DNA of 11,866 bases, taken from Methanotrichaceae archaeon (GTDB lineage: Archaea; Halobacteriota; Methanosarcinia; Methanotrichales; Methanotrichaceae). Below the pieces are notes generated by a model. The model had not been told where the DNA came from and did no database searches. It was given only the letters and a program-made list of their open reading frames with translations. Positions 1,997 to 6,355 of the stretch are shown piece by piece. The translations under genes and the position numbers were made by a program. The first letter of the stretch is position 1. Each line of letters starts with the position of its first letter. Location of the stretch: the NCBI GenBank assembly GCA_013329455.1, contig DUKF01000195.1, forward strand, positions 1-11,866. The letters are read 5' to 3'.

Positions 1997-3889
1997 ATGT
2001 CGTCTTTACTGGATAGGTTCGTCTCAAGGACAGATTTCGAGTCTTACGAGGATTTTAAGGAAAACTTCAAGATAATAGTGCCCGAGAACTTCAACTTCGC
2101 CTTCGACGTGGTGGACGTCTACGCGAAAGATGACCCCGAAAAGGTCGCCCTCGTCTGGTGCAACGACTTCGGTGAGGAGAAGATCATAACCTTCGGGGAG
2201 ATGAAACTTCTCAGCGACAAGGCGGCAAACCTCTTTTTGGGTCACGGCATCAAGAAGGGCGACGCGGTGATGCTCACTCTCAAGAGCCGATACGAGTTCT
2301 GGATATGCATGATCGGCCTGCACAAGATCGGAGCCGTGGCCATCCCCGCAACTCATATGCTCAAGAAAAAGGACATCGTCTACCGGATAAGGAGGGCCGA
2401 CCTCAAGATGATCATATGCATCGAGGAGGACGGCGTCCCAGCCGAGGTGGACGGGGCGCATCTGGAGCTCGGCGAGATACCTCTGGTGAAAGCCTTCGTG
2501 GGCAACGAGAAAAGGGCTGGCTGGCTCGACTTCAGAAGGGAGATTGAGGAAGCCTCTTCCGACTTTGCAGGGCCCACAGGCGACGAGGCAACGAAGAACT
2601 CAGACATTCTCCTCGCCTACTTCACCTCCGGGACGACGGGAAACCCGAAGATGGTGAACCACGACCAGACCTACGCCCTCGGCCACATCCTGACCGCGAA
2701 GTACTGGCAGAACGTCGAGGACGGCGGCCTCCACTACACCGTCGCCGACACCGGCTGGGGAAAGGCGGTCTGGGGGAAGCTCTACGGCCAGTGGATCGCG
2801 GGATCGGCGGTCTTTGTCTACGACTACGACCGGTTCGATGCCCCAAGGATGATGGAGATGGCCTCAAAGTACGGCGTCACCACCTTCTGCGCACCTCCCA
2901 CCATCTACAGGTTCATGATAAAGGAGGATATGTCAAGGTACGATTTCTCGACCCTCACGTATGCCGTCACGGCCGGTGAGCCGCTGAATCCGACGATATA
3001 CAACAAGTTTCTGGAGGCGACAGGCCTTCGTCTGATGGAAGGGTTCGGCCAGACCGAGACTGTCGTCTCCATCGCAAACTACCCCTGGATGGACCCCAAG
3101 CCCGGATCTATGGGCAAGCCCACGCCAGGGTACGATATGGTCCTGGTGGACAAAAACGACAAGGTCTGCGAAGTCGGTGAAGAAGGCGAGATCGTGATCA
3201 AGACCGATAAAGGCAGACCGATCGGCCTCTTCGTCGACTACCACCTCGACCCCGAGAAGATGAGGAATACCTGGCACGACGACTACTATCACACCGGAGA
3301 TACAGCCTGGGTTGATGAGGACAGCTACTTCTGGTTCGTCGGCAGAGCCGACGACATCATAAAGAGCTCTGGATACAGGGTCGGCCCCTTCGAGGTCGAG
3401 AGCGCCCTTCTTACCCATCCCGCGATCCTGGAGTGCGCCATCACCGGGGTTCCTGACACCCTCAGGGGCCAGGTGGTGAAAGCAACGGTGGTTTTGACGA
3501 AGGACTACACACCATCTGAAGAGCTGAAGCTGGAGCTTCAAACCCACGTTAAGAAGATCACCGCCCCTTACAAGTATCCAAGGATCGTCGAGTTCGCAGA
3601 CGAGCTCCCAAAGACGATCAGCGGAAAGATAAGAAGAGTCGAGATCAGGGAGAAGGACAAACCCTATCCTGTCATAAACGCCATCGAGTGCAAGGCCTGT
3701 GAAAGGTGCATCCTCGCCTGCCCTGCCAACGTGCTGAAGCTCGGGGACGAGTTCAATGAGAGAGGTTACCGCTTCGCGGTTTATTCGGGAGAGGGCTGCA
3801 TCGGTTGCGGAAACTGTTATTACACCTGTCCCGAGCCCTTTGCGATCGAGGTCCACATCCCGTCAAAGGAGAAGTTCGAGGAGGAATGA
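1997..3889 (+). CDS. AMP-forming acyl-CoA synthetase (medium-chain type) fused to a C-terminal two-[4Fe-4S] ferredoxin domain
   Basis: A 630-residue fusion. Residues 1 to about 555 are an ANL-superfamily acid:CoA ligase (acid + ATP + CoA to acyl-CoA + AMP + PPi). The P-loop FTSGTTGNPK is at 209-218. The GFGQTE adenine/acyl motif, the HTGD motif and GRADDIIKSSGYRVGPFEVE at the hinge follow. The adenylation-catalysing lysine is K544 in PKTISGKIRR. The segment ADTGWGKAVWGKLYGQW is typical of medium-chain/branched acyl-CoA synthetases. After a short linker, residues about 560-620 are a dicluster ferredoxin: C565, C568, C571, C575-P and C601, C604, C607, C611-P, both complete. This ferredoxin resembles the delta subunit of four-subunit 2-oxoacid:ferredoxin oxidoreductases, and the next two genes supply alpha and beta-gamma with no separate delta. 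The start has AGAGGAA upstream. The acid used is not readable from sequence; small branched acids are my best guess. Confidence 0.93.
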   Translation: MSSLLDRFVSRTDFESYEDFKENFKIIVPENFNFAFDVVDVYAKDDPEKVALVWCNDFGEEKIITFGEMKLLSDKAANLFLGHGIKKGDAVMLTLKSRYEFWICMIGLHKIGAVAIPATHMLKKKDIVYRIRRADLKMIICIEEDGVPAEVDGAHLELGEIPLVKAFVGNEKRAGWLDFRREIEEASSDFAGPTGDEATKNSDILLAYFTSGTTGNPKMVNHDQTYALGHILTAKYWQNVEDGGLHYTVADTGWGKAVWGKLYGQWIAGSAVFVYDYDRFDAPRMMEMASKYGVTTFCAPPTIYRFMIKEDMSRYDFSTLTYAVTAGEPLNPTIYNKFLEATGLRLMEGFGQTETVVSIANYPWMDPKPGSMGKPTPGYDMVLVDKNDKVCEVGEEGEIVIKTDKGRPIGLFVDYHLDPEKMRNTWHDDYYHTGDTAWVDEDSYFWFVGRADDIIKSSGYRVGPFEVESALLTHPAILECAITGVPDTLRGQVVKATVVLTKDYTPSEELKLELQTHVKKITAPYKYPRIVEFADELPKTISGKIRRVEIREKDKPYPVINAIECKACERCILACPANVLKLGDEFNERGYRFAVYSGEGCIGCGNCYYTCPEPFAIEVHIPSKEKFEEE

Positions 3890-3892
3890 AAT

Positions 3893-4936: not shown

Positions 4937-6355
4937 ATGGCTGCAAAGGAAAAGGTCATCGGACCTGCCGGATTTTACAGCATCTTTGAGAGAAAGGGGG
5001 GCGCCGCTCCCACGGCCACCCATTACTGTCCCGGATGCGGCCACGGGATCTTGCACAAGATCATAGCAGACACGATGATGGATCTCGGGATACAGGACCG
5101 GTGCGTCTTGATGAGCCCGGTGGGCTGTTCGGTCTTCGCCTACTACTACATCGACTGCGGCCATGTCCAGACGGCCCACGGGAGAGCTCCAGCCATCGCC
5201 ACAGGGATATCTCGCGCCGAGGACGACGCCATCCTCATCTCCTACCAGGGTGACGGCGACCTCGCCTCCATCGGTCTCAACGAGACGGTCCAGGCAGCGA
5301 ACCGAGGCGAGAAGATAACGATCTTCTTCGTGAACAACACCGTCTACGGGATGACCGGTGGCCAGATGGCTCCCACAACCCTGGTTGGCGAGGTGACCGC
5401 AACGACGCCAAACGGTCGAGATCCGAGGGATGCTGGCTACCCGATCCACATGTGCGAGCTTCTCGACACACTCAAGGCTCCTGTCTACATCGAAAGGGTC
5501 TCCCTATCGAACATAAATCACATCAGAAAAGCCCGCCGCGCAGTGAGACGGGCTCTTGAGATCCAGAGGGACAAGAAGGGCTACGCCTTCGTCGAGTTCC
5601 TCTCGCCCTGTCCCACCATACTCAGGATGGACGCGAAGGGGATCGAGAGATTCATAAACGAGGAGATGGAGCGGGAGTTTCCCCTGAAGAGGTTCAGGGA
5701 TCGATCCGTCGAGGCAGAGCCGATCGAAAGGAGAGAGAGCGACTTTTCAAAAGCCTCCCTCGACAAGGCCTTCGGTGTTTCCGCCAGTGATTCCATCGAG
5801 GTCGTAACGAACCCGGAGTTTGTGCCCAAGGGTGTGAAGATCTCGGGCTTTGGAGGACAGGGCGTCCTCAGCATGGGCCTTGCTCTGGCGCAGGCCGCCT
5901 ACAAAGCAGGCCGGTTCGTCTCCTGGTATCCGGACTATGGCCCCGAGCAGAGGGGCGGAACCTCGAACTGCTCTATCGTGATCTCAGGGGAGCAGATCGG
6001 CTCACCCGTCGTCGACGAGCCCGACGTCCTCGTCGCCTTCAACAGGCCATCTCTGGACAAGTTCGCCACCGACGTCAAAAAGGGCGGACTGATCCTTTAC
6101 GACGCCCTGGCCGGGGCCTTCAAGCCACCGGAAGGGGTGAGAGCGATCCCGGTTCCGGCAACCGACATCGCGTTGGGCAAAGGCGTGGAACAGGCCGCGA
6201 ACACTGCGATGTTCGGCGCTCTGATGGAGGCAGGCAATTTAGGCCTTCCCGGGGAGGCCTTCGGCAGGGCTCTTGAGCGGACTTTCGCCAAGAAGCCGAA
6301 GCTGATCCCTCTCAACCTGGAGATCCTGGAGACTGGTGCCAAGAGCGTGAGGTGA
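4937..6355 (+). CDS. 2-oxoacid:ferredoxin oxidoreductase, fused beta (TPP-binding) and gamma subunits
   Basis: A 472-residue fusion. Residues 1 to about 260 are the beta subunit. The [4Fe-4S] ligands expected of this family are all visible (C31 and C34 in CPGCGHG, C64 in PVGCS, C225 in SPCPT). The Mg-thiamine-diphosphate motif runs from GDGD (105-108) to NN (133-134), with TGGQMAPTT just after. Residues about 296-472 are the gamma subunit, beginning GVKISGFGGQG (GFGGQG at 304-309) and continuing with SWYPDYGPEQRGGTSNCSI. The linker at about 260-295 is charged and low in conservation. With the preceding alpha subunit and the ferredoxin domain on the acyl-CoA synthetase, all four functional parts are present. 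TGA and ATG are directly adjacent at the upstream junction, and GGGAGGTGG lies in the end of the alpha gene. It is the last gene before a hairpin terminator. Cytosolic, no membrane segments. Confidence 0.94.
   Translation: MAAKEKVIGPAGFYSIFERKGGAAPTATHYCPGCGHGILHKIIADTMMDLGIQDRCVLMSPVGCSVFAYYYIDCGHVQTAHGRAPAIATGISRAEDDAILISYQGDGDLASIGLNETVQAANRGEKITIFFVNNTVYGMTGGQMAPTTLVGEVTATTPNGRDPRDAGYPIHMCELLDTLKAPVYIERVSLSNINHIRKARRAVRRALEIQRDKKGYAFVEFLSPCPTILRMDAKGIERFINEEMEREFPLKRFRDRSVEAEPIERRESDFSKASLDKAFGVSASDSIEVVTNPEFVPKGVKISGFGGQGVLSMGLALAQAAYKAGRFVSWYPDYGPEQRGGTSNCSIVISGEQIGSPVVDEPDVLVAFNRPSLDKFATDVKKGGLILYDALAGAFKPPEGVRAIPVPATDIALGKGVEQAANTAMFGALMEAGNLGLPGEAFGRALERTFAKKPKLIPLNLEILETGAKSVR

Follow-up and report, generated by a model that had tools for sequence, protein, structure and literature searches.

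Organisation of the locus

The window analysed here is the whole stretch of 11,866 nucleotides of contig DUKF01000195.1 (C161:1-11866) in a 2.17-Mb, 81.5% complete assembly of a Methanotrichaceae archaeon. It carries four genes on the same strand, which encode a helix-turn-helix (HTH)-cupin regulator, a putative Macs-type acyl-coenzyme A (acyl-CoA) synthetase fused to a ferredoxin domain identified below as an oxidoreductase delta subunit, and the alpha and beta-gamma subunits of a 2-oxoacid:ferredoxin oxidoreductase, separated by 23, 3 and 0 bases, respectively, in the list of open reading frames (ORFs) (Table 1). The evidence presented below suggests that the cluster is probably a module in which an acid is activated and then reductively carboxylated at the expense of reduced ferredoxin, the activating enzyme being attached to the subunit through which electrons enter. 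The original prediction, made from the sequence of the window, had described the fused gene as followed without gaps by the alpha and beta-gamma genes, which agrees with the spacing found; it omitted the regulator gene, which is part of the cluster. A TATA-like run and a terminator-like stem-loop suggest, without proof, a single transcript from the regulator gene to the beta-gamma gene. The stem-loop is no evidence by itself, five such sites being present in the region against 5.5 expected from shuffled sequences.

Table 1. Coordinates of the operon and its parts in the window
Feature	Position	Strand	Basis
TATA-like run, possible archaeal promoter, 34 bases upstream of the cluster's first ATG	1384..1390	+	Read by eye; inference only
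HTH-cupin regulator, 182 aa	1425..1973	+	Pfam Cupin_2 63.9 bits, HTH_3 24.1 bits; adjoins Macs in relatives too
Fused Macs-delta protein, 630 aa	1997..3889	+	Single uninterrupted ORF; Pfam; conservation in the family
Acyl-CoA synthetase part, residues 1-555	1997..3661	+	Colinear with Methanosarcina acetivorans Macs (PDB 3etc), 999 bits
Delta part, residues 556-630	3662..3886	+	Fer4_7; aligns with separate delta proteins; eight Cys codons within 3689..3829
Alpha subunit, VorB type, 347 aa	3893..4936	+	NF005507 VorB 561.8 bits (cut-off 399); POR_N, PFOR_II
Beta-gamma subunit as one protein, 472 aa	4937..6355	+	Pfam TPP_enzyme_C 71.5 bits, POR 141 bits
Terminator-like stem-loop 3' of the last gene	6380..6405	+	Such sites not enriched over shuffles

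The fused synthetase-ferredoxin protein

Pfam domains AMP-binding (204.8 bits), AMP-binding_C (78.9 bits) and Fer4_7 (37.9 bits, residues 565-612) were identified in the fused protein. Its synthetase part has both domains of an AMP-forming acyl-CoA synthetase and the catalytic lysine of the C-terminal domain (K544), and its ferredoxin part carries eight cysteines (565, 568, 571, 575, 601, 604, 607 and 611) in two CxxCxxCxxxC sets. Seven of these cysteines are invariant across 60 full-length database proteins of this architecture and 29 further fused loci, the sole change being C568 to Y in one database row. The single ORF, the domains and the near-invariance of the cysteines thus bear out the architecture first proposed, an AMP-forming synthetase with a C-terminal dicluster ferredoxin. 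K544 is present in 60 of 60 database rows and 29 of 29 other rows and stands 21 residues before the first [4Fe-4S] ligand, C565, a length that is constant in 90 of 90 fused rows, which may overlap in organism.

A search with the fused protein covered 60 genomes, namely 37 of its own family, own genome included (f1, G000-G036, taken as Methanotrichaceae from the names of the closest database proteins), 21 of f3 (Methanosarcinaceae, from the enzyme match to Methanosarcina) and two of f2. The fusion is full-length in 32 of the 37 Methanotrichaceae genomes, some of them one- or two-contig assemblies, and lies in pieces in four (G010, G011, G020 and G029). A close full-length synthetase that stops before the ferredoxin was identified in 19 of the 21 Methanosarcinaceae genomes; no close synthetase was found in the other two (G041, G049) or in either f2 genome. 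The database search gave 65 matches among 73 candidates, 64 with both domain types and 60 full-length, and those of the closest that carry a name are called Methanothrix, Methanosaeta, Methanotrichaceae, Methanocrinis or Methanosarcinales. One partial match is named Sedimentisphaerales, and no ferredoxin domain is listed for that protein. The search detects close relatives of this ferredoxin, and fusions with other ferredoxins could escape it.

An assembly or frame artefact was considered and is ruled out by the 32 full-length fusions in the family. A single-chain structure model had a mean predicted local distance difference test score of 67, with values under 50 in the link and a large part of the ferredoxin, and was used for no conclusion.

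The ferredoxin domain as a delta subunit

In the six Methanosarcinaceae loci that were read (L068-L073), genes for Macs, a separate ferredoxin of 77-86 residues, alpha and beta-gamma follow one another in all six, and an HTH-cupin gene stands directly before Macs in five. The gap between Macs and the ferredoxin gene exceeds 400 bases in L070 and L071, and one transcript is not certain in those two. The fused domain is 60-70% identical to these separate ferredoxins (45-51 identities over 72-78 aligned positions), which score 108-121 bits against it. Since they occupy the same operon position in six loci, the identification of the C-terminal domain as the delta subunit is supported, and the dicluster delta expected of a VorB-type oxidoreductase is represented by orthology. 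A chance ferredoxin-like tail is ruled out by the same orthology.

An alternative would be that the domain serves as a free-standing ferredoxin in some other process and is no part of this oxidoreductase. The domain is absent from the 33 matches of the PorD_KorD profile (TIGR02179) in its own genome, and among proteins of solved structure its sequence is most similar to a polyferredoxin (39.8 bits), followed closely by the ferredoxin subunit of a 2-oxoglutarate oxidoreductase (37.3 bits). Against this stands the high identity to ferredoxin genes lying right before alpha in six unfused operons, which is the place of delta in the bacterial clusters, and an independent ferredoxin is therefore very improbable.

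The original prediction had also noted that no separate delta gene accompanies the cluster. A further delta of this type was not detected in the 81.5% complete genome, either with the PorD_KorD profile or with the fused domain as query. The only PorD_KorD match above the cut-off immediately precedes a PorA-type gene on contig C201, and the fused domain gives scores of 24 and 18 bits with two small ferredoxins on contig C51.

The alpha and beta-gamma subunits

The alpha subunit exceeds the VorB cut-off (Table 1), and a thiamine pyrophosphate (TPP)-binding beta domain and a POR gamma domain are present in the beta-gamma protein, as in VorB-type enzymes. The beta-gamma protein remains below the cut-offs of PorB_KorB (114.3 of 261.9 bits) and PorC_KorC (58.8 of 81.1 bits), and the subunits are far below those of indolepyruvate oxidoreductase (IOR_alpha 56.7 of 650.9 bits, IOR_beta 37.1 of 205.8 bits).

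A plasmid search for bacterial relatives gave three annotated clusters and one unannotated stretch, and the alpha subunit is 40-52% identical to four bacterial alphas. The four-subunit VorB-type oxidoreductases of anaerobic bacteria have the same subunits in the same order, delta-alpha-beta-gamma in the three annotated clusters, whereas in the window delta is fused to a ligase and beta to gamma; no ligase is annotated beside the three annotated bacterial clusters. In another genome of the family, locus L102 (G008:C18) contains at 7394-7757 an additional gamma-like stretch, 65% identical and interrupted by stop codons, which is perhaps what is left of a second copy.

The synthetase part and its probable substrate

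The closest solved enzyme to the synthetase part is M. acetivorans Macs, with which residues 1-555 align without gaps; that enzyme lacks a ferredoxin domain, and in the Methanosarcinaceae loci that were read Macs has a gene of its own. All six acyl-pocket positions (W259 and, by numbers that we take to be correct, W237, W254, K256, C298 and G351) are retained in the window, and also in those Macs-type synthetases adjoining the oxidoreductase that cover them. According to the accessible portion of PMC10455477, M. acetivorans Macs, whose acyl pocket includes W259, prefers 2-methylbutyrate and makes acyl-adenylates from propionate to octanoate and from some branched acids, of which only suitable ones proceed to the thioester. 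The cut-off of the MbcS acyl-CoA synthetase model (NF047394) was not reached (476.6 of 850 bits). Our best guess from these comparisons is an enzyme of the Macs type acting on a 2-methylbutyrate-like acid, and the kinship with a characterised 2-methylbutyrate-preferring enzyme, advanced in the original prediction, holds.

The same reactions could have another main short acid, such as propionate, isobutyrate or isovalerate, or a range of acids. The breadth of adenylate formation noted above favours this, as do the score of alpha as VorB, an enzyme named for 3-methyl-2-oxobutanoate, and the presence of two Macs genes on the oxidoreductase contig in nine Methanobacteriaceae genomes (G328, G334, G336, G341, G342, G350, G352, G360 and G366), which may reflect two acids. 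The pocket positions nevertheless match those of the 2-methylbutyrate-preferring enzyme, also in the covering neighbours of the oxidoreductase, and the restriction of thioester formation to suitable adenylates narrows the range, so that a different main acid or a range of acids is unlikely, though well worth keeping in view.

An unfused Macs paralogue, 77% identical, lies at 5472-7142 of contig C53 in the own genome (G000; L066), on a 12-kb contig without oxidoreductase subunits, and three other Methanotrichaceae loci likewise have such a paralogue with no oxidoreductase subunits nearby. It forks within Methanotrichaceae, and the tree, with its poorly resolved forks, gives two changes for the fused label; the paralogue may have lost a ferredoxin or may never have had one.

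Origin of the fusion and distribution of the operon

The distance between the synthetase and beta-gamma genes is 1050-1065 bases in 10 of 11 fused Methanotrichaceae genomes, the pair lying on different contigs in the eleventh (G029), and 1385-1873 bases in 19 of 19 unfused Methanosarcinaceae genomes. Because Methanosarcinaceae have, between Macs and alpha, a separate delta gene whose product can be aligned to the fused domain over its length, and the spacing is consistent, the comparison indicates that the fused gene arose when Macs was linked to the delta gene directly downstream of it. In one of the unfused loci (L072, 4894-6570; G040) the Macs gene is present as two ORFs split by an in-frame stop TAG; TAG can encode pyrrolysine in the family of that organism.

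Close beta-gamma proteins (E <= 1e-60) were identified in 47 of 294 genomes of the phylum, all of them Methanotrichaceae (11) or Methanosarcinaceae (36). A scan of named genomes with the alpha alignment extended the survey, the best 80 of at least 589 stretches being kept. Among these 80 loci, a Macs-type synthetase scoring above 500 bits occurs in 15 (12 of the 53 that are flanked by 3 kb or more on either side), a further one is truncated at the contig end (362 bits), four have a distant synthetase only and 60 have none. Six of them, all Methanobacteriaceae/Methanobrevibacter (L115, L116, L117, L120, L121 and L124), have genes for HTH-cupin, Macs, delta, alpha and beta-gamma in exactly this order; a deltaproteobacterial contig (L122) starts inside Macs and continues with the remaining operon genes, and the Macs-delta fusion occurs in one, a Methanothrix (L114). 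Four Methanomassiliicoccus-type loci (L127, L128, L136 and L142) carry, downstream of the oxidoreductase, an HTH-cupin gene and a synthetase that are both only distantly related (95-108 bits for the synthetase, whose pocket is not conserved), and perhaps follow the same logic with another acid.

In a set of 119 Methanobacteriaceae genomes, the family of the Methanobrevibacter olleyae locus L117, beta-gamma (E <= 1e-100) is present in 92, and 80 of these have Macs (E <= 1e-150) on the same strand, no more than 3 kb upstream. The remaining 12 comprise five genomes without such a Macs, five with it on another contig, one with it slightly further upstream and one with it downstream. A beta-gamma homologue named from Methanococcus voltae is 64% identical to that of M. 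olleyae; M. voltae is reportedly the subject of a cited title on pseudoauxotrophy for leucine and isoleucine.

A different fusion was observed in six gut-type loci of Clostridia/Oscillospiraceae (L164, L166, L171, L187, L190 and L193), in which the HTH-cupin regulator is joined to Macs in a protein of about 750-810 residues, the domains being confirmed by Pfam for two of the six. These genes stand upstream of delta-alpha-beta-gamma, as a tandem pair in three of the six loci.

The Macs-delta fusion might be a neutral joining of adjacent genes, the enzymes acting in sequence with no channelling and no gain from the link. The genes were neighbours before the fusion, they stay separate in 19 of 19 unfused genomes and an unfused Macs paralogue persists in some relatives, all of which agree with neutrality. 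The constant link length and the retention of the fusion in 36 of the 37 family genomes, four of them in pieces, argue for a contribution of the link, while the separate HTH-cupin-Macs fusion of gut Clostridia fits selection for common control and not for channelling. A neutral joining is accordingly quite conceivable, with a chance somewhat short of even.

Proposed function and physiological context

In the proposed route, the Macs part would use ATP and CoA to convert a short branched acid, at best guess 2-methylbutyrate with related acids possible, into its CoA ester, which the alpha, beta-gamma and fused delta subunits would carboxylate with CO2 to a 2-oxoacid. Electrons would pass from reduced ferredoxin through the two [4Fe-4S] clusters of delta into the oxidoreductase, and the 2-oxoacid would then be aminated to isoleucine, valine or leucine. 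The synthetase would be held on the oxidoreductase, tethered to its electron-entry subunit via the short link of fixed length on the C-terminal domain of the synthetase. Speculatively, the CoA ester may be handed over directly, or the swing of the C-terminal domain may be coupled to electron entry. A full version, a channelled and redox-gated activating carboxylase in which the mobile C-terminal domain is anchored at the electron-entry site and its swing hands the CoA ester to the TPP site in time with electron arrival, is doubtful.

It has long been known that rumen methanogens need branched acids and convert them to isoleucine and leucine. The portion of PMC10658910 available lists a 2-methylbutyrate requirement for Methanobrevibacter ruminantium and, as one component of a mix of fatty acids, for M. 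boviskoreani and M. wolinii; it also names branched acids as a source of isoleucine and leucine. The consulted part of PMC2812497 gives reductive carboxylation of 2-methylbutyrate as the proposed isoleucine route of M. ruminantium. The part of PMC7709123 seen describes the reverse reaction as not proven. Acid activation feeding carboxylation is favoured because of the kinship with Macs, the retained pocket, the delta orthology and the presence of the same genes in a methanogen genus with species that need branched acids. The original prediction is therefore partly supported, its main line being the likely one. ilvD is present in 59 of 60 relatives, own genome included, and ilvB in 10 of 10 genomes tested, own included. 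The route is thus neither the sole path to branched-chain amino acids nor needed for their synthesis, and loss of de novo branched-chain synthesis is ruled out as an explanation. Salvage of acids set free by fermenting neighbours would be a suitable role.

Besides ilvB, ilvD and the missing PorD_KorD match, several observations weigh against the proposed coupling. No Macs-type synthetase was identified in 64 of the 80 best loci, partly owing to contig ends, and therefore the oxidoreductase does not always depend on one. In 21 of the 119 Methanobacteriaceae genomes a close Macs is present and beta-gamma is absent, W237 is replaced by C in one of the 60 fused database proteins, and the search with the fused protein found no fusion in one of the 37 family genomes (G012, 93% complete).

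The cluster could also run in the oxidative direction, converting 2-oxoacids from amino acids to acyl-CoA with reduction of ferredoxin, the ligase freeing the acid, perhaps with recovery of ATP. The 2-oxoacid:ferredoxin oxidoreductase reaction is reversible, bacterial relatives occur in amino-acid fermenters, and a butyrate kinase gene about 3.4 kb downstream in the Peptoclostridium relative suggests this direction there, a further point against carboxylation. An AMP-forming ligase would, however, work against its usual direction, and the operon occurs in methanogens whose genus includes species that depend on branched acids as building blocks; oxidation is hence distinctly unlikely here.

Coupled activation and carboxylation is not without parallels. 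In the aryl-acid route of methanogens, indolepyruvate oxidoreductase works with an aryl-CoA ligase; both systems share the logic of acid, CoA ester and reductive carboxylation, while the aryl route uses aromatic acids and other subunit families, the window subunits scoring far below the IOR cut-offs. The reductive carboxylation of branched acids by rumen microbes shares the proposed reaction and substrates but is known as physiology, no operon being assigned in the accessible parts of PMC2812497, PMC7356843 and PMC10658910. The portions of open-licence PubMed Central literature consulted contain no recognisable account of the fusion or of a Macs-oxidoreductase operon; a 2010 paper on M. acetivorans Macs may well mention neighbouring genes.

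The fusion and its parent five-gene operon (HTH-cupin regulator, Macs, delta, alpha and beta-gamma) name candidates for the conversion. The operon occurs in Methanobrevibacter and also in Methanosarcina relatives, which encode a very close counterpart of the characterised synthetase and in which genes can be deleted; with this wider occurrence the finding is of greater use than the fusion would be by itself. Should the tether prove important, it would be a natural design that couples acid activation to CO2 fixation.

Other features of the window

Divergent from the operon, positions 1-1245 of the minus strand hold two ORFs that we take, by eye, to resemble RtcB (cut by the window edge) and archease. 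Two adjoining ORFs of 154 and 171 residues, neither with a Pfam match, lie at 7016-7996.

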